The translations under genes were made by a program, and so were the position numbers. Below are positions 9-8,123 of a stretch of DNA of 32,761 bases, one piece after another. Within the stretch, counting starts at the first letter, position 1, and each line of letters starts with the position of its first letter. The stretch comes from an uncultured Terriglobales bacterium (GTDB lineage Bacteria > Acidobacteriota > Terriglobia > Terriglobales > Acidobacteriaceae), in assembly GCA_955652395.1 (NCBI GenBank), contig CATPBJ010000148.1, positions 1-32,761 of the forward strand. Reading direction: 5' to 3'. The notes below the pieces were generated by a model. The model was given only the letters and a program-made list of their open reading frames with translations. It made no database searches and was not told where the DNA came from.

Positions 9-674
9 CTATTGTTCCACCGTTTGTAGCTCTTCCGAGGGAGCTTGCTCCGAGCCTTTTTCCCCGCCGTACAGTATCTCCGACACGGCCTGCTGGTTCT
101 GCCGAGTTCGTGCGACCAGGGACCGTCCGCTGTCTCCGAGCGTCGCGACTTTCTGCGTCGCGGCCAGAGCTCGTCCGTACAGTGCGTGCGCCGCCAGGTA
201 ATTGTGGTTCTCGCATTGACGATTGGCTAAGGTGTACAAGTTTCCCGCAAAGGCCAGCCACTGTCGGCGGCGAAGCCGGTCCATCGTCTTTGAGGACAGC
301 GCAACGCCGGGAGTAACGCCGTGCTGTTCGATCTCACGGATTTGTTTGCGCAACCAGCCGGCGAGGAATTCTTCCAATTCCATCTGCGTGCCATACCGGT
401 AGAAATAATCGATGGTCTCACCCTTGTCCGTGAGTGGGATGAGCCGGCACGGTGATTGCTGATTCTGCAACTCGCGAGGGACAAACCTCATCAGTAGACA
501 TTCACTGCACGGATGGGGCCGGGCCGAATCGCGGAAGTTGGGACAGGTTGGCGAGTCTTCGAACGCCAACTGAGGAAGCCACGGGGTGTGGGGAGAGCGT
601 CCATAGCCGCCGTCTTCCAGGAATTTCAGCTCGAACTTGAGCAGATCCAGCAGCTCCTGATCTTCTTGCTTCAT
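9..674 (-). CDS. Four-cysteine conserved protein of unknown function (paralogue of 7665-8123)
   Basis: I do not recognise a named family. The 221-residue product has four cysteines spaced C-x11-C-x2-C-x16-C (C44, C56, C59, C76), inside a block reading FEDSPTC...PCSEC...VP.EL...PCR, followed by ETI..(Y)..GT and LA.WL...I..(E). Exactly this spacing recurs in the protein at 7665-8123, so the cysteines probably bind a metal or Fe-S centre (inference). About 100 extra C-terminal residues here look helical, with an A/L/Y-rich stretch resembling a single TPR-like repeat. The ATG at 674 is preferred over an upstream GTG at 740: it follows a GAGGTGAGGTGG purine-rich stretch, and homology with the paralogue begins at this methionine. 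The gene is divergent from the broken PFOR gene, with two GTGA-N6-TCAC palindromes between them. Confidence 0.75.
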   Translation of the reverse strand: MKQEDQELLDLLKFELKFLEDGGYGRSPHTPWLPQLAFEDSPTCPNFRDSARPHPCSECLLMRFVPRELQNQQSPCRLIPLTDKGETIDYFYRYGTQMELEEFLAGWLRKQIREIEQHGVTPGVALSSKTMDRLRRRQWLAFAGNLYTLANRQCENHNYLAAHALYGRALAATQKVATLGDSGRSLVARTRQNQQAVSEILYGGEKGSEQAPSEELQTVEQ

Positions 675-748
675 AGGCCACCTCACCTCAACGACATCAG
701 GGTCGCAGAATCGGCCTTTGGCTGCCGTGGTCAAGGTCACGGGTCCGC

Positions 749-1920: not shown

Positions 1921-3303
1921 TCAGCGGCCTGGGCTGCCCTCAGAAACTTGCAGGTCCAGGGCTACGCGTTCTCCATTGATCAACACCGCTCCAGTATCGA
2001 TGAGTTGTTGACCAGTGCAGTCGTATTTCTCATAGCAGCGCAAAGCCGCGAAAGGGAAGAAGAACTCCACAGCTTCGGTCTTGCCGGTCGCTGGCGATCG
2101 GCCGCCCACGTGGACCGTAGTGCTGAAACTGATGCCATCGAACTTCGGTTCTTCCGTGAAGTAGGCTAGGGTGGGACGGATGAGGTGCGCCACGTGGTCA
2201 TCAAATGCCATAGCGGCGAGTTTGTAGCGCGATCCCCCGGCGGACTCGGGCAGAATCGTATTCAGCGAGAGTTCAAGGTAGATGCCCTGTCGGAAAGCCA
2301 CAAAACTCTGCGCCGCGTAGGAGACAAAGCGCGCCTGCGGGTCTAACTCTTTCACAAGTTTGGCGAGCAGCTCCTGACTGGAGGCTTGCAATGCGGCCAG
2401 CGCTTGGGGTGATGCGTCCCGAACCGGAGTCAGCGCAACCACACTCGGTTTTGCTACGGGAGCGACGGGGACACTCACTGGTACTTGCGTGCTGCTACCC
2501 TCACGGGCCTCGGCGATTTCGTTTTCGGGCGGCGCCCGGCGGTCGGTGGCATTGGCATTCGGGTCGGTGCCAGGCGCAGGCTGGGGTCCTTCTCCATTGA
2601 GCCAGATATTGATGGGCTGGGCGTTCAGAAAAATCTGACCCTGCATCAACCCCGCCTGTTGGACATTCTCATTCTTGGAGCCCAGAAGTTGGAGGGCACC
2701 GCTTTGCGGCAAAAACACCATTAGGTTTTCCGGCCTTTCCACCATCACCCCCATCACATTTCCGAGAACGTGATGGGAAATTTCGAGGGCGTAGCCTTGT
2801 ACCTGCTGATTTGCCTGGAAGCGCGGAACTTCCGACTTCAAAATCGGCATGACTACGCTCAGAAAAGTGCTTCGCGCCCGCTGGTCCGCTCCGATTTTTT
2901 CCGAGTAAGCAGCGTAGTAGTTGCCCGTGACTGCCAGTACGGTCTGGCCGTTGTAGCGCTCAAATCGAATCGAACGCCGATCAGCCTGCTGTTGTTGGGA
3001 TTCGTCGAGATCCAACTTGCGATTCAGATAGAAGTGATACTTAAGCTGAAGCCCTTGAATGTCCTGGCCCACGACCTTCAAATCGTTGATGTACTGTTGC
3101 TGCAACGAGCGCAGGTCTGGATCTCGTATCTCCGCGGGAGTAAGAACTTGTGCCGAGGCGGCGCTGCTGGCGGCCACAATACTAAAAATACTAATAAGCA
3201 TAAGTACGAGAAGCCGACATTTGCACATAAGCCATTCTTTACCCAGGCCGCGGCGAATCGTCGTCGCTGCAATTGCCTTCCGATCGAGGGACATACTGCT
3301 CAT
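1921..3303 (-). CDS. Secreted protein of unknown function, last gene of the cytochrome operon
   Basis: The 460-residue product has a long basic N-terminal region, then a hydrophobic segment (LLVLMLISIFSIVAASSAASAQ) ending in an AxA-type cleavage site near residue 52, so export is likely. The mature part has a Q/R-rich stretch (about residues 60-115), a region around 145-245 with mixed strands, a P/A-rich linker (about 245-300) and a C-terminal domain with two cysteines (LRCYEKYDC, about 425) that could form a disulfide. No haem or copper motif is present and I do not recognise the family. The ATG at 3303 has AGGAG six bases upstream; an inner ATG at 3228 lacks a comparable site. It starts 10 bp after the dihaem cytochrome stop, so the two are surely co-transcribed. 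A structural or assembly role for the electron-transfer proteins is only a guess from context. Confidence 0.8.
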   Translation of the reverse strand: MSSMSLDRKAIAATTIRRGLGKEWLMCKCRLLVLMLISIFSIVAASSAASAQVLTPAEIRDPDLRSLQQQYINDLKVVGQDIQGLQLKYHFYLNRKLDLDESQQQQADRRSIRFERYNGQTVLAVTGNYYAAYSEKIGADQRARSTFLSVVMPILKSEVPRFQANQQVQGYALEISHHVLGNVMGVMVERPENLMVFLPQSGALQLLGSKNENVQQAGLMQGQIFLNAQPINIWLNGEGPQPAPGTDPNANATDRRAPPENEIAEAREGSSTQVPVSVPVAPVAKPSVVALTPVRDASPQALAALQASSQELLAKLVKELDPQARFVSYAAQSFVAFRQGIYLELSLNTILPESAGGSRYKLAAMAFDDHVAHLIRPTLAYFTEEPKFDGISFSTTVHVGGRSPATGKTEAVEFFFPFAALRCYEKYDCTGQQLIDTGAVLINGERVALDLQVSEGSPGR

Positions 3304-3312
3304 GCATCTCTC

Positions 3313-4203
3313 CTATTTCTGCGGAGGGTAAAGCGTAAGGTACAAGTACGCATTCGCCACTTCGTCTTCGCTCAAGTAGTCAAACACTGGCATTCTCCCG
3401 CGAAATGGCTCTGATGGCGCGCCCATGCTGATCGGGTTACCGGCGGTAACCTTTCGAACAAACTCAGGCAGGCTCGTCCGAGTGGTGAGGGTACTGAGCG
3501 GTGGTATTGCGCCTTCGAGAATTTGCTGCGGGTTGGGGTTCGGTCCCGCCGCATTGTGACAGATGTGGCATGTGGATTTCACGATTTGCTCGCCCACGTG
3601 AGAGGGCGACTCGGTGATCGCGATTTGTTGCTTTTCCGCCCCCGGGACGCCAGCCAGCTGTCTCAAATAGGCGATCATAGACCGGACCTCCGTTTCGCTT
3701 AATTGCGGGAACGGGGGCATGTCCTGCCCGCCCTTGTGAAAGCGGTCCAGTATCGCAGCATTGGCCTGCTTGGCAAGCACTGCCGCGTTGGCCCGGCTCA
3801 TGTCCATGCCAGCCTTTTTCATTCTTTCCATGATGATCTCGACAGACGTCGAGCGGACCGGGTCGACGACGGAGTTGATTTCCGGAGGGGCACCGTGCCC
3901 GGACCCTGTGTGACATCCCCGGCAATTCAGGCGGTAAACATCAGCACCGTGAAGAGTCATGCTTCGCGCCGCAAAGCCCTGCGATAGTTTCTCTTGCCAG
4001 GCAGCGGAGTCCTGTCCAGGCATCGGCGCCGCTGGCCCTGCGTGCCAGGTCTTGCCCATGCTGGTATCGCTGAACTTACGATGCAGATGGTTGAGCCAGC
4101 TTTCGCCTTCGACGGGCGTAACGGGAATGTCTTTGCTCCCAACCGATTGACCCAGCAGCGATGACAGGAGTGCGAAAATCACCGCCAAGTTTTTCATCGG
4201 CAT
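3313..4203 (-). CDS. Periplasmic dihaem cytochrome c
   Basis: The 296-residue protein has a signal peptide (residues 1 to about 22) and two c-type haem motifs, CRGCH (94-98) and CHICH (212-216). Each is followed by a Met-Pro segment that could supply the axial methionine: M162 in DMPPFPQLSETEVRSMIAYL and M271 in RMPVFDYLSEDEVANAYLYL. These are two tandem class I cytochrome c folds, built like cytochrome c4 and other dihaem shuttle proteins. Its likely job is to carry electrons across the periplasm between the outer-membrane cytochrome-porin and an inner-membrane complex. I chose ATG 4203 (AGGA eight bases upstream) over an in-frame start at 4254. It lies 111 bp downstream of the cupredoxin gene and 10 bp upstream of the next gene. 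Confidence 0.88.
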   Translation of the reverse strand: MPMKNLAVIFALLSSLLGQSVGSKDIPVTPVEGESWLNHLHRKFSDTSMGKTWHAGPAAPMPGQDSAAWQEKLSQGFAARSMTLHGADVYRLNCRGCHTGSGHGAPPEINSVVDPVRSTSVEIIMERMKKAGMDMSRANAAVLAKQANAAILDRFHKGGQDMPPFPQLSETEVRSMIAYLRQLAGVPGAEKQQIAITESPSHVGEQIVKSTCHICHNAAGPNPNPQQILEGAIPPLSTLTTRTSLPEFVRKVTAGNPISMGAPSEPFRGRMPVFDYLSEDEVANAYLYLTLYPPQK

Positions 4204-4313
4204 GATGAACTTCCTGGGAGACCTTGCTGAATCGAAAATCAAGGCCTTTTTCATGCTCTTTTTCTCGAGGGAGCGAAGGCCCAGTAAGCTTCCGCTCCCG
4301 TACTCTCTTTTCC

Positions 4314-4895
4314 TTACTTGCTCAGAGTGAAATCCGCCTTGCTATCGCCAGACACGGTCACCGGCTTGGACTGGTTCTTCGCCCCTTCATGCCAAGCGGT
4401 CACAGTGTAGCTTCCATCCGGAACGTTCTCAATCTTGTAATTGCCGGTCTGGTCCGAAGTGGCGAAGTAGGGAGTGGGAACGACGACGAGATAAGCCGAC
4501 ATCTCCGGATGGACATTGCAAAGCACCGGCACCGCACCGGGCGTGTCGAACTTGAACGACTTCTTTTCGCCCTTCGGCCAGGTACCGAGGTTGTGGGCGA
4601 GTTTTTTGTTACCGCCGATGGAAGTCCAAAAGACGTTGTGAGCGACGCTGTCGCTGTTGAGGAAGTCGACGGTAGTTCCTATCTGGACCGCCATGACGTG
4701 AGGCTGGAAGACCAGACCTTTCTGGTCGATTACCGGAGGCTGAGTGGGCGCAGGAAACGTTTTACCCGAAATAGTGTCAACGTAAACTACGGACTGTCCG
4801 GTGACTCCGGAAACCTGTCCGCTGATGGTGCCAGCTTTGGCGGCCAGAGTAAGTCCAGTTACGACTGCGAGTAGAACCAGAACATTGCGCTTCAT
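4314..4895 (-). CDS. Cupredoxin (blue copper protein) with C-terminal carboxypeptidase-regulatory-like domain
   Basis: The 193-residue exported protein has a signal peptide (1 to about 21), a plastocyanin/azurin-type domain (about 60-138) with a complete type-1 copper site, H86 (SVAHNVF) and C126-H129-M132 (CNVHPEM), and a small beta-sandwich tail (about 146-192) of the kind seen in carboxypeptidase regulatory domains (GNYKIENVPDGSYTVTAWHEG). It should carry single electrons in the periplasm or at the outer face. ATG 4895 follows AAGGAG; an extended frame to 4964 would overlap the porin gene and lacks a site. It sits 44 bp after the cytochrome-porin and before the dihaem cytochrome. That order recalls the Acidithiobacillus rus region, where the copper protein is rusticyanin, but sequence similarity to rusticyanin was not tested. 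Confidence 0.88.
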   Translation of the reverse strand: MKRNVLVLLAVVTGLTLAAKAGTISGQVSGVTGQSVVYVDTISGKTFPAPTQPPVIDQKGLVFQPHVMAVQIGTTVDFLNSDSVAHNVFWTSIGGNKKLAHNLGTWPKGEKKSFKFDTPGAVPVLCNVHPEMSAYLVVVPTPYFATSDQTGNYKIENVPDGSYTVTAWHEGAKNQSKPVTVSGDSKADFTLSK

Positions 4896-4938
4896 GATTT
4901 CTCCTTGATTTAAAGTTAGGGAGGCTTGGCTCCCCGAT

Positions 4939-6549
4939 CTAATAAACGAACTCCAGCCCTGCAATCGCCGAGTTAGTACGGAACGGTGCGGTAAGAGGCA
5001 ACCCTGTGGCCGGGTCGTAGACGACCTGCTGCGGCCGGATCTGGTACTCGAAGGACGCCTTTATGTTGGCGTGAACCAGAAACTGCACGCCGGGGGTAAA
5101 CCGATTTCGCGTGGCGTGGAAAGGCGACACGAACTTACCGATGTCGTTGTCGGGAGTGGCCCCGATGCCGTTAATCAGGTCGGCCGTGGAGTGCACCGCG
5201 TCCCAGCGCATGATGGTCATCAGCCAGGGCAGCGCCAGGTAGTCTGCCTCCAGGAAGCCGCCGCTGAAGCTGGCCGGACTTCCCCGGAGAAGTCCGGTCG
5301 GCAGCGGGAGGCCGGCTGGAAGCAACGGCAACAGGTTCTGGTCGCGTCCATACATGTACTGTCCAAACAGATTGAGGGCGTGATAGTTGAAGCTGAAGTC
5401 CCCCCCGACCCGATAGAACGGCTCGCGCGCCGTCAACACAGTCAAAACTCCCGTGCTGTCCTGGCCTTTAAACCGCTGCACAGAACGTCCGTAGAAATAG
5501 AGCGTCCCCAGGTTGAGATAGGTATGATCGCGAGGCCCAGCGGCTCCGGCCGCCTGGATTTCGTTGCGGCTGGCTGGGTCGCGCTCCAGGTTAAAGCGGT
5601 AAGAGAGACGACCATAGAGGTCTTTGAAGTTGGAGTCCGAGGTATAGGACACTTGAGGTGGAACATTGTTTCCGGCGCCAGGCGTGCCGCCGGTATTCTG
5701 GTTCACGATAGCCAGAGAATAGTGATAGCCGCGATAGGTGTGACCGCCGCTGAACTCCACTCCCTGTGCCGGGGCCGACATGAAAGAGTGGTTGTTGACG
5801 CTGGGCGTCGTCAGGACGGAATTCACCGTGCCAAGGTTGGTCTGGGCATAAATGTCCCAACCGCTCAGATTCCAACTGCGCGCTTGACTGAAGGGCAGGT
5901 CCAGTTCGAACTGCCCGATCCGCAGGCTGAACGAATCGGTCGGCAGTTTCAGGTGGCGGCCCATGTTCACGAACTTCAGATAACCATCCCCCAGACCACC
6001 ATTGGAGTTGGCGCCGCCGACGCTGATGTCGTCATCTACCCAGAAGGCGATGTCATCCCCAAAGTTACCGGCCATGAAGATGCTTAAAAAGCCGGACTGA
6101 AAGTCCGTGCGCGGAATAAAGGGAGCGGTCGGATCTCCTGGAGCTTGCAGATTGAAGTTGTTCCGGTTTCTGCCGACCACCTGGAAGAACGTATTGAAAC
6201 GCAGTCCGATCGGCGGCAATCCGGGAATGGTTCCTGGCCATATGGTATGAGGCCACAATTCTTTCTGAGCCGGAGACCCCAACATCACCGGCGGAGTCTT
6301 GATGAAGGTCTCGTCATCTTTGGGGAACTTGAATCCGGCATCCTTGAAGGCCCGACCGAAATCGTTGAGCTTAGGAAAGTCCACATGGCAAGTGCTGCAG
6401 GACGTGCCGTACTGGCGCGAGAATGCGGGAATGGCATAGATCTGGTGGCCAAGGTTCGCTCCTCCTGCGACCCGCGGTGGAAGGCTGGCGAATAGTGCGA
6501 ATATCAGAATCGCGAAGAGAGGTACCGTTATCTGATGGCGCTTGGGCAT
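4939..6549 (-). CDS. Cyc2-like fused outer-membrane monohaem cytochrome-porin
   Basis: The 536-residue protein has a signal peptide (to about residue 29). A short cytochrome segment follows with one haem motif, C51-S-T-C54-H55, in the context IPAFSRQYGTSCSTCHVDFP plus KLNDFGRAFKDAGFKFP. The remainder is a long alternating beta-rich region typical of an outer-membrane barrel, ending in an aromatic residue (LEFVY). The PAF.RQ....C..CH..P.L..FGR.FK..G signature is that of Cyc2-type proteins, which pass electrons through the outer membrane, for example from Fe(II). The same signature also occurs in barrel cytochromes of unknown role, so substrate and direction are not settled. The start ATG 6549 has GGAGG eight bases upstream. 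It is the first gene of a four-gene operon, with CRP/FNR-type palindromes 375-490 bp upstream. Confidence 0.82.
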   Translation of the reverse strand: MPKRHQITVPLFAILIFALFASLPPRVAGGANLGHQIYAIPAFSRQYGTSCSTCHVDFPKLNDFGRAFKDAGFKFPKDDETFIKTPPVMLGSPAQKELWPHTIWPGTIPGLPPIGLRFNTFFQVVGRNRNNFNLQAPGDPTAPFIPRTDFQSGFLSIFMAGNFGDDIAFWVDDDISVGGANSNGGLGDGYLKFVNMGRHLKLPTDSFSLRIGQFELDLPFSQARSWNLSGWDIYAQTNLGTVNSVLTTPSVNNHSFMSAPAQGVEFSGGHTYRGYHYSLAIVNQNTGGTPGAGNNVPPQVSYTSDSNFKDLYGRLSYRFNLERDPASRNEIQAAGAAGPRDHTYLNLGTLYFYGRSVQRFKGQDSTGVLTVLTAREPFYRVGGDFSFNYHALNLFGQYMYGRDQNLLPLLPAGLPLPTGLLRGSPASFSGGFLEADYLALPWLMTIMRWDAVHSTADLINGIGATPDNDIGKFVSPFHATRNRFTPGVQFLVHANIKASFEYQIRPQQVVYDPATGLPLTAPFRTNSAIAGLEFVY

Positions 6550-7455: not shown

Positions 7456-7668
7456 ATGAAACGAGATTCTCTATTAAGCCGACTAGAAAATGAAGATGAG
7501 CTGCGTCCGATCGAAGCGGCAAAGCATGTTGCCAGCGCTCGTCATTTGCTGACATGCTTGGGCGATAAGTTGGGAGGCCGCCGCCAGTGGCCAGAGCTGG
7601 ATGAGGCGATTACCAAACTGGAGATCGCACTGAGCATTCTGACGACCGAAACCGGCGGAATGTTATGA
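7456..7668 (+). CDS. Small helical protein of unknown function, 70 aa
   Basis: No family is recognised. The product is predicted largely helical, with a central segment PIEAAKHVASARHLLTCLG and a C-terminal helix ELDEAITKLEIALSILTTE. I chose ATG 7456 because AGAGGTG lies six bases upstream; an alternative GTG at 7408 would overlap the preceding stop codon (GTGA) and add 16 residues. The end overlaps the next frame by four bases (ATGA), so the genes are likely translationally coupled. Confidence 0.6.
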   Translation: MKRDSLLSRLENEDELRPIEAAKHVASARHLLTCLGDKLGGRRQWPELDEAITKLEIALSILTTETGGML

Positions 7669-8123
7669 CCACCGAGATTCCGGTCAGTGTGGAGTATGGA
7701 CGGAGGCAGGCCATGGCCAGAGAGAAACGGGATCTCTTAGAAGTGCTAAAGCTCGAACTCGAATTCGTCAAAAATGGCGGCTATCGGCAGGCATCCTCGT
7801 GGAGGCCAAAGTTGACGTTTGAGGATTCCCCGACTTGCCTGAATTACAGCCATCCCGAGCAGCCGAGGCCCTGCAGCGAGTGCGTCATGATGCAGCTTGT
7901 TCCAGAAGAACTTCGCGGTGAGAAAGTTCCGTGCAGGCATATACGGATCAATGAACACAAGGAGACCATTCAGTCCTTGTATGCCACTGGAACTCCCGAG
8001 GAGATCGAGACGCAATTGGCCGAATGGCTGATGAATACGATCCAGAGGTTGGAGCTTGAAAGAGCAGCAAGTCAGTCCGGTCCAGTGAACGGAACATCGA
8101 AAGCCAGTGCCGGCAGAGCGTAA
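7665..8123 (+). CDS. Four-cysteine conserved protein of unknown function (paralogue of 9-674)
   Basis: The 152-residue protein shares the FEDSPTC...PRPCSEC...VPEEL...VPCR core with the product of 9-674, including the identical spacing C-x11-C-x2-C-x16-C, followed by KETIQSLYATGT and the LAEWLMNTIQRLE helix. It lacks the long C-terminal helical part of the paralogue. ATG 7665 overlaps the previous stop as ATGA; a second start, ATG 7713, has a stronger ribosome site (GGAGG) and is where homology with the paralogue begins, so the true start may be 7713 (136 aa). Metal or Fe-S binding is inferred from the invariant cysteines. No enzyme motif is visible. Confidence 0.75.
   Translation: MTTEIPVSVEYGRRQAMAREKRDLLEVLKLELEFVKNGGYRQASSWRPKLTFEDSPTCLNYSHPEQPRPCSECVMMQLVPEELRGEKVPCRHIRINEHKETIQSLYATGTPEEIETQLAEWLMNTIQRLELERAASQSGPVNGTSKASAGRA

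Follow-up and report, generated by a model that had tools for sequence, protein, structure and literature searches.

Does an uncultured acidobacterium that encodes a cytochrome-porin, a blue copper protein and a dihaem cytochrome side by side exchange electrons with the outside of the cell, and if so, in which direction? Acidobacteriota are among the commonest bacteria of soil and peat and are mostly treated as heterotrophs. The genes in question lie in a stretch of 32,761 nt from an uncultured Terriglobales bacterium (Acidobacteriota; Terriglobia; Acidobacteriaceae), comprising positions 1 to 32,761 of the forward strand of contig CATPBJ010000148.1 (assembly GCA_955652395.1), and this whole stretch is called the window here. 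Four genes follow each other head to tail on the minus strand, with short gaps and purine-rich stretches before the start codons: a Cyc2-type fused cytochrome-porin of 536 aa (4939-6549, ATG at 6549) with signal peptide, haem segment and predicted 16-strand beta barrel; a secreted cupredoxin of 193 aa (4314-4895, true start ATG 4895 with GGAGAA upstream); a secreted dihaem cytochrome c (3313-4254, alternative start ATG 4203) with the haem motifs CRGCH and CHICH; and a secreted 460-aa protein with no cofactor motif (1921-3303, alternative start ATG 3228). An earlier note on this DNA had described the four frames, the CSTCH of the porin, the copper ligands and the two haem motifs, and all of them were confirmed, positions and strand included. 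Judged by eye, the N-termini of all four proteins resemble Sec signals. The common strand, the short gaps and the adjacency conserved in relatives suggest that the four genes form one operon. No cox genes were found within or adjoining it, and an Rfam search of the window gave no match.

The operon is flanked by two ORFs (9-740, minus strand, and 7665-8123, plus strand) that are 45% identical to each other and match no Pfam family; the first has relatives close to the porin gene at some other loci (e.g. L047, L051, L054, L094-L097). The plus-strand frame at 835-1586 looks by eye like the start of a pyruvate:ferredoxin oxidoreductase, with a frameshift near 1164 and a stop after about 250 aa, and is a pseudogene or fragment.

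According to the published criteria, Cyc2 proteins possess a signal peptide, one CxxCH preceded by AxPxFAR[Q/K][T/Y] and followed by PxL, at least 365 aa, and a 16-strand porin (PMC8406198). The window porin has its sole CxxCH at residues 51-55 (CSTCH), behind an N-terminus that by eye is hydrophobic and signal-like, and its haem segment reads AIPAFSRQY-GTS-CSTCH-VDF-PKL. Its length and the PKL at +4 after the CxxCH agree with Cyc2, whereas the strict motif before the haem is missed by one residue (AIPAFSRQY) and is present if A or S is allowed. The published strict filter, PxFAR[Q/K][T/Y], would reject the protein because of its S for A, and the operon would provide a marker gene set that strict-motif Cyc2 searches overlook. 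Since exact FARKY or FARQY occurs in 36 of the 88 copies of this porin family, and three Cyc2-type proteins of Chlorobia (L170, L173, L174) also have S at this place, the change from A to S is no argument against kinship with Cyc2.

In the AlphaFold2 model (pTM 0.67, low confidence over residues 22-49) the porin has 16 long strands, and Foldseek searches with this model returned porins on top (E 2e-11), the closest being general trimeric porins such as OmpF. The 16-strand barrel of Cyc2 is thereby predicted for the porin with moderate confidence. Neither the porin nor its profile matched any PDB sequence, and no NCBIfam model matched the window porin except for a weak MauG-like match below the cut-off. 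The protein shares with Cyc2 of Acidithiobacillus, Mariprofundus and Chlorobium and with Cyt572 of Leptospirillum the single N-terminal CxxCH, the motif AxPxF[A/S]R[Q/K][T/Y] three residues before it, the PxL after it, the length of at least 365 aa and the modelled barrel.

To place the porin, we calculated a maximum likelihood tree of 87 porins, including 12 Cyc2 proteins of Chlorobia, which were recognised by their FMO protein (PF02327) and served as the cluster 1-type comparison, the one Cyc2 cluster covered by the tree. The window porin fell into an Acidobacteriota clade (support 100/99), and a long branch with 100/100 support separates it from the Chlorobia proteins. In this set, which contains no haem-less porins, it grouped with other haem-bearing, cupredoxin-linked porins, and the grouping with non-electron-transfer porins that the earlier note had named as a refutation was not seen. 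Its description as Cyc2-like thus held for motif and architecture, but in the tree the porin belongs to a lineage separate from cluster-1-type Cyc2, the cluster compared. Its family also differs from Cyc2 in being encoded together with a cupredoxin and interchangeable redox modules.

Another porin with a Cyc2 motif (FARKYHTACSTCH..FP.RNGFG.AFRNNGYRFP) was met in multiple copies in Bacteroidota-side genomes (L139-L160), several of which are FMO-bearing Chlorobia; some copies lie beside a cupredoxin. These porins are a second family beside canonical Cyc2.

The type-1 copper site of the cupredoxin (H86/C126/H129/M132) is complete, and its ligands are invariant in 131 of 131 aligned homologous copies. 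The protein matches Pfam Copper-bind over the cut-off (E 1.9e-7) and has a C-terminal carboxypeptidase-regulatory-like domain, which is common in binding proteins. The dihaem protein matches Pfam Cytochrome_CBB3 (E 3.8e-14) and Cytochrom_C, and its closest solved relatives are, weakly, the cytochrome c subunits of bc1 complexes.

In acidophilic iron oxidisers, Cyc2, rusticyanin and the dihaem cytochrome Cyc1 form a path from the outer to the inner membrane, and the earlier note had drawn the analogy to this path. The rus operon of Acidithiobacillus has the order cyc2-cyc1-cup-cox-rus (PMC10654088) and, like the window operon, encodes a porin-cytochrome, a blue copper protein and a dihaem cytochrome together; the window operon differs from it in the lack of oxidase genes, the extra 460-aa protein, the gene order and the weak bc1-type relationship of its dihaem protein. 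The proposal that an outer-membrane electron-transfer unit was assembled here separately from the rus operon is supported by the Cyc2 motif with one substitution, the single haem, the PxL, the modelled barrel and the conserved linkage. The window operon would work like the rus pathway at most.

How constant this gene set is was studied by a scan of 84,980 genomes for relatives of the porin, which gave 79 loci, nearly all from Acidobacteriota, 74 of them with enough sequence to test. The cupredoxin gene directly follows the porin gene in all 74 (median gap 43 bp). The porin-cupredoxin pair is the constant unit, and the dihaem gene is not. In 60 of the 74 loci a Rieske/b-octahaem module follows the pair, starting with an NAD(P)-type flavoprotein in 59; a few are cut by contig ends. 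These 59 loci, some of them cut in this way, were classified as Type I and encode a GltD-like NAD(P)/FeS flavoprotein, a Rieske protein, cytochrome b6, subunit IV, an octahaem and a monohaem cytochrome (subunits identified by Pfam and NCBIfam), and the 460-aa gene ends the operon in most loci that reach far enough. One further locus lacks only the flavoprotein of Type I. Seven loci (Type II) have the octahaem gene, plus monohaem and 460-aa genes where the sequence reaches, without Rieske/b. The window and six other loci (Type III) have a dihaem cytochrome and the 460-aa gene in variable order. At L071 the dihaem gene lies upstream without the other partners, and at L076 and L078 it precedes a complete Type I operon. 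The short-form genomes of L043, L051, L054 and L074 have no octahaem; those of L071 and L119 carry one elsewhere.

The Type I order porin-cupredoxin-GltD-Rieske-b6(-subunit IV)-octahaem-monohaem is kept in distant families of Acidobacteriota (L192-L197, L202), where the porins are only 26-30% identical and the loci have no recognisable 460-aa gene. Two distant families (L198, L199) have the combination porin-cupredoxin-dihaem as well, and in Bacteroidota-side genomes a porin lies beside a cupredoxin. An Ignavibacteria record (L087) was considered as a case of spread to another phylum and rejected: to judge from the 68-91% identity of its porin pieces and from a sampling site shared with acidobacterial MAGs, the contig is probably acidobacterial and misbinned.

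In the window, a short variant, the dihaem cytochrome takes the place of the Rieske/b-octahaem module of most relatives; between relatives, the inner-membrane module is exchanged. Conservation of gene order across Acidobacteriota, a check that the earlier note had proposed, holds for the porin-cupredoxin pair, with which the 460-aa gene co-occurs, and not for the dihaem gene. Since the dihaem cytochrome is not the usual partner, the comparison with Cyc2, rusticyanin and Cyc1 fits only the minority variant, that is, the window and the six other dihaem loci, and not the majority with the Rieske/b-octahaem module. Our literature searches, which covered open-access papers only, returned no description of this operon; for the acidobacterial genus Terracidiphilus, counts of Cyc2-type (oxiEET) genes are given (PMC12285243). 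The modular operon around the porin-cupredoxin pair is apparently undescribed, and one of its protein families is new.

The best PDB matches of the Type I Rieske protein are 9rk4 and 9rk3, the Rieske proteins of the Kuenenia complexes Kuste4569-4574 and Kustd1480-1485. In these complexes, for which NAD(P)H production has been proposed (PMC12954380), b6, subunit IV and Rieske are combined with multihaem c and an FeS cluster-containing NAD(P) oxidoreductase. The Type I relatives share with them a b6-like cytochrome b, subunit IV, a Rieske protein, a multihaem c and an NAD(P)/FeS flavoprotein, but their octahaem protein is built of cytochrome-c (CBB3-type) domains, and the genes of their complex are joined in a single operon by those of the outer-membrane cytochrome-porin and the cupredoxin. 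The Rieske relationship and the common subunit set suggest that the outer-membrane pair is connected, in the majority of relatives, to a complex of this sort; its anammox-type gene set occurs in Type I loci and is absent from the window. A link between the outer membrane and a Rieske/b-NAD(P) complex, encoded in one conserved operon, would offer a way of exchanging electrons with iron or humics that can be put to the test, and also a possible setting for the Kuenenia-type complexes; for one of these, no driving reaction is known. The Geobacter ext cluster (extHIJKLMNOPQS) likewise combines a porin, a Rieske protein, cytochrome b and c-type cytochromes, and the relatives' cytochrome b and subunit IV gave matches to ExtP (258 bits) and ExtQ that stay below the cut-off; its description names no cupredoxin (PMC5877670), whereas the window operon has one. 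A plausible if tentative reading for the whole phylum is a modular conduit of Acidobacteriota, in which the cytochrome-porin and cupredoxin would be wired straight to a Rieske/b complex of the NAD(P)-linked anammox type, with extracellular partners driving or driven by NAD(P)H chemistry; the window lineage would have swapped this module for the dihaem cytochrome, and the 460-aa protein would be a new dedicated component.

The 460-aa protein matches no Pfam family and has no PDB sequence match, and no haem or copper motif was found in it. Pfam S4 was rejected as an assignment of its family (E 0.03 for the window protein; at best E 0.0013, in one of 24 members). Its model is confident (mean pLDDT 82.7, pTM 0.52) and has two similar, repeated alpha/beta domains, and Foldseek gave only weak matches with low TM-score, none of them convincing. 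The protein represents a new family. Independent searches with this protein and with the close porin retrieved exactly the same ten of 297 Acidobacteriota genomes; these ten sit in two families and are therefore not independent events. Among the genomes of the window's own family, however, 20 that were listed carry neither the porin nor this protein, and within the window's clade the 460-aa gene is usually the last of the operon. Because the cupredoxin gene directly follows the porin gene in every testable locus and the 460-aa protein tracks the porin across the 297 genomes, the gene set is not due to chance, and the suggestion that this protein is a new component is supported. Most likely, it would be a non-redox accessory, acting in the periplasm or at the outer membrane as an assembly or docking factor for the porin-cupredoxin pair.

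The window genome is 88% complete, and a search for a close octahaem in it was negative; at this completeness, the Rieske/b-octahaem module is probably but not certainly absent. Its sole related cytochrome b (51% identity) belongs to a bc-type cluster on contig 17. The genome also encodes three haem-copper oxidases (COX1), one of them beside a cluster that by eye is ACIII-like.

We consider it reasonably likely that the four genes encode a short electron wire from the outer membrane to the periplasm, and electron exchange with an extracellular partner is the most likely function. An extracellular donor would reduce the c-haem, which is fused at the porin N-terminus to the 16-strand barrel, at the outer membrane; the electron would then pass to the blue copper protein, to the dihaem cytochrome and further into the respiratory chain (bc-type complex of contig 17, ACIII-like cluster, three haem-copper oxidases), with the secreted 460-aa protein assisting assembly or docking of the pair. 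Copper, monohaem and dihaem carriers are usually high-potential, and since the carriers are of these kinds and the genome has oxidases, inward flow is favoured. By analogy with the characterised Cyc2 proteins, whose activity is Fe(II) oxidation (PMC8406198), the electron donor would probably be Fe(II) or a reduced humic substance.

The main rival to inward flow is the same wire running outward and passing electrons from respiration to Fe(III) or oxidised humics outside the cell, with the copper protein and the haem-porin as the last steps. The quinol-type Rieske/b complex beside the porin-cupredoxin pair of relatives could feed electrons out in this way; the copper and single-haem carriers, usually high-potential, speak against it, as does the fact that known outward conduits (MtrCAB, OmcB) use many low-potential haems. 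The Geobacter porin-Rieske-cytochrome b cluster, related in its b subunits, is tied to selenite/tellurite reduction (PMC5877670), but for Cyc2 itself the characterised reaction is Fe(II) oxidation (PMC8406198), and we regard the outward direction as unlikely. It is more doubtful still that the operon is a relic left by loss of the Rieske/b-octahaem module, in which the remaining porin, cupredoxin and 460-aa protein do little or serve another function. Indeed, the window porin nests among the full-operon relatives L041 and L044 in the tree, and a further set of the same genome, on contig 219, has a broken porin; but none of the four window genes is damaged, no copper or haem ligand is lost, six other loci of several clades also show the short form with its dihaem gene, and porin-cupredoxin-dihaem is found in the two distant families. 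Least probable, and improbable in itself, is the import of a small molecule or metal (e.g. copper) by the porin, with haem and cupredoxin as a sensing or detoxifying redox step: the OmpF-like barrel and the regulatory-like domain of the cupredoxin would suit it, but within the porin conservation is highest in the haem segment, and the phylum-wide linkage to Rieske/b, octahaem, monohaem and dihaem cytochromes points to electron transfer.

Two further sets were seen in the window's own genome. On contig 219 (L218, 5352-7846), a cupredoxin gene is followed by a porin frame broken by stops and frameshifts, and by a cytochrome c fragment. Contig 10 (L219, 4635-7819) carries a second intact set, consisting of a Cyc2-like porin with exact FARKY, a dihaem cytochrome c and a cupredoxin.
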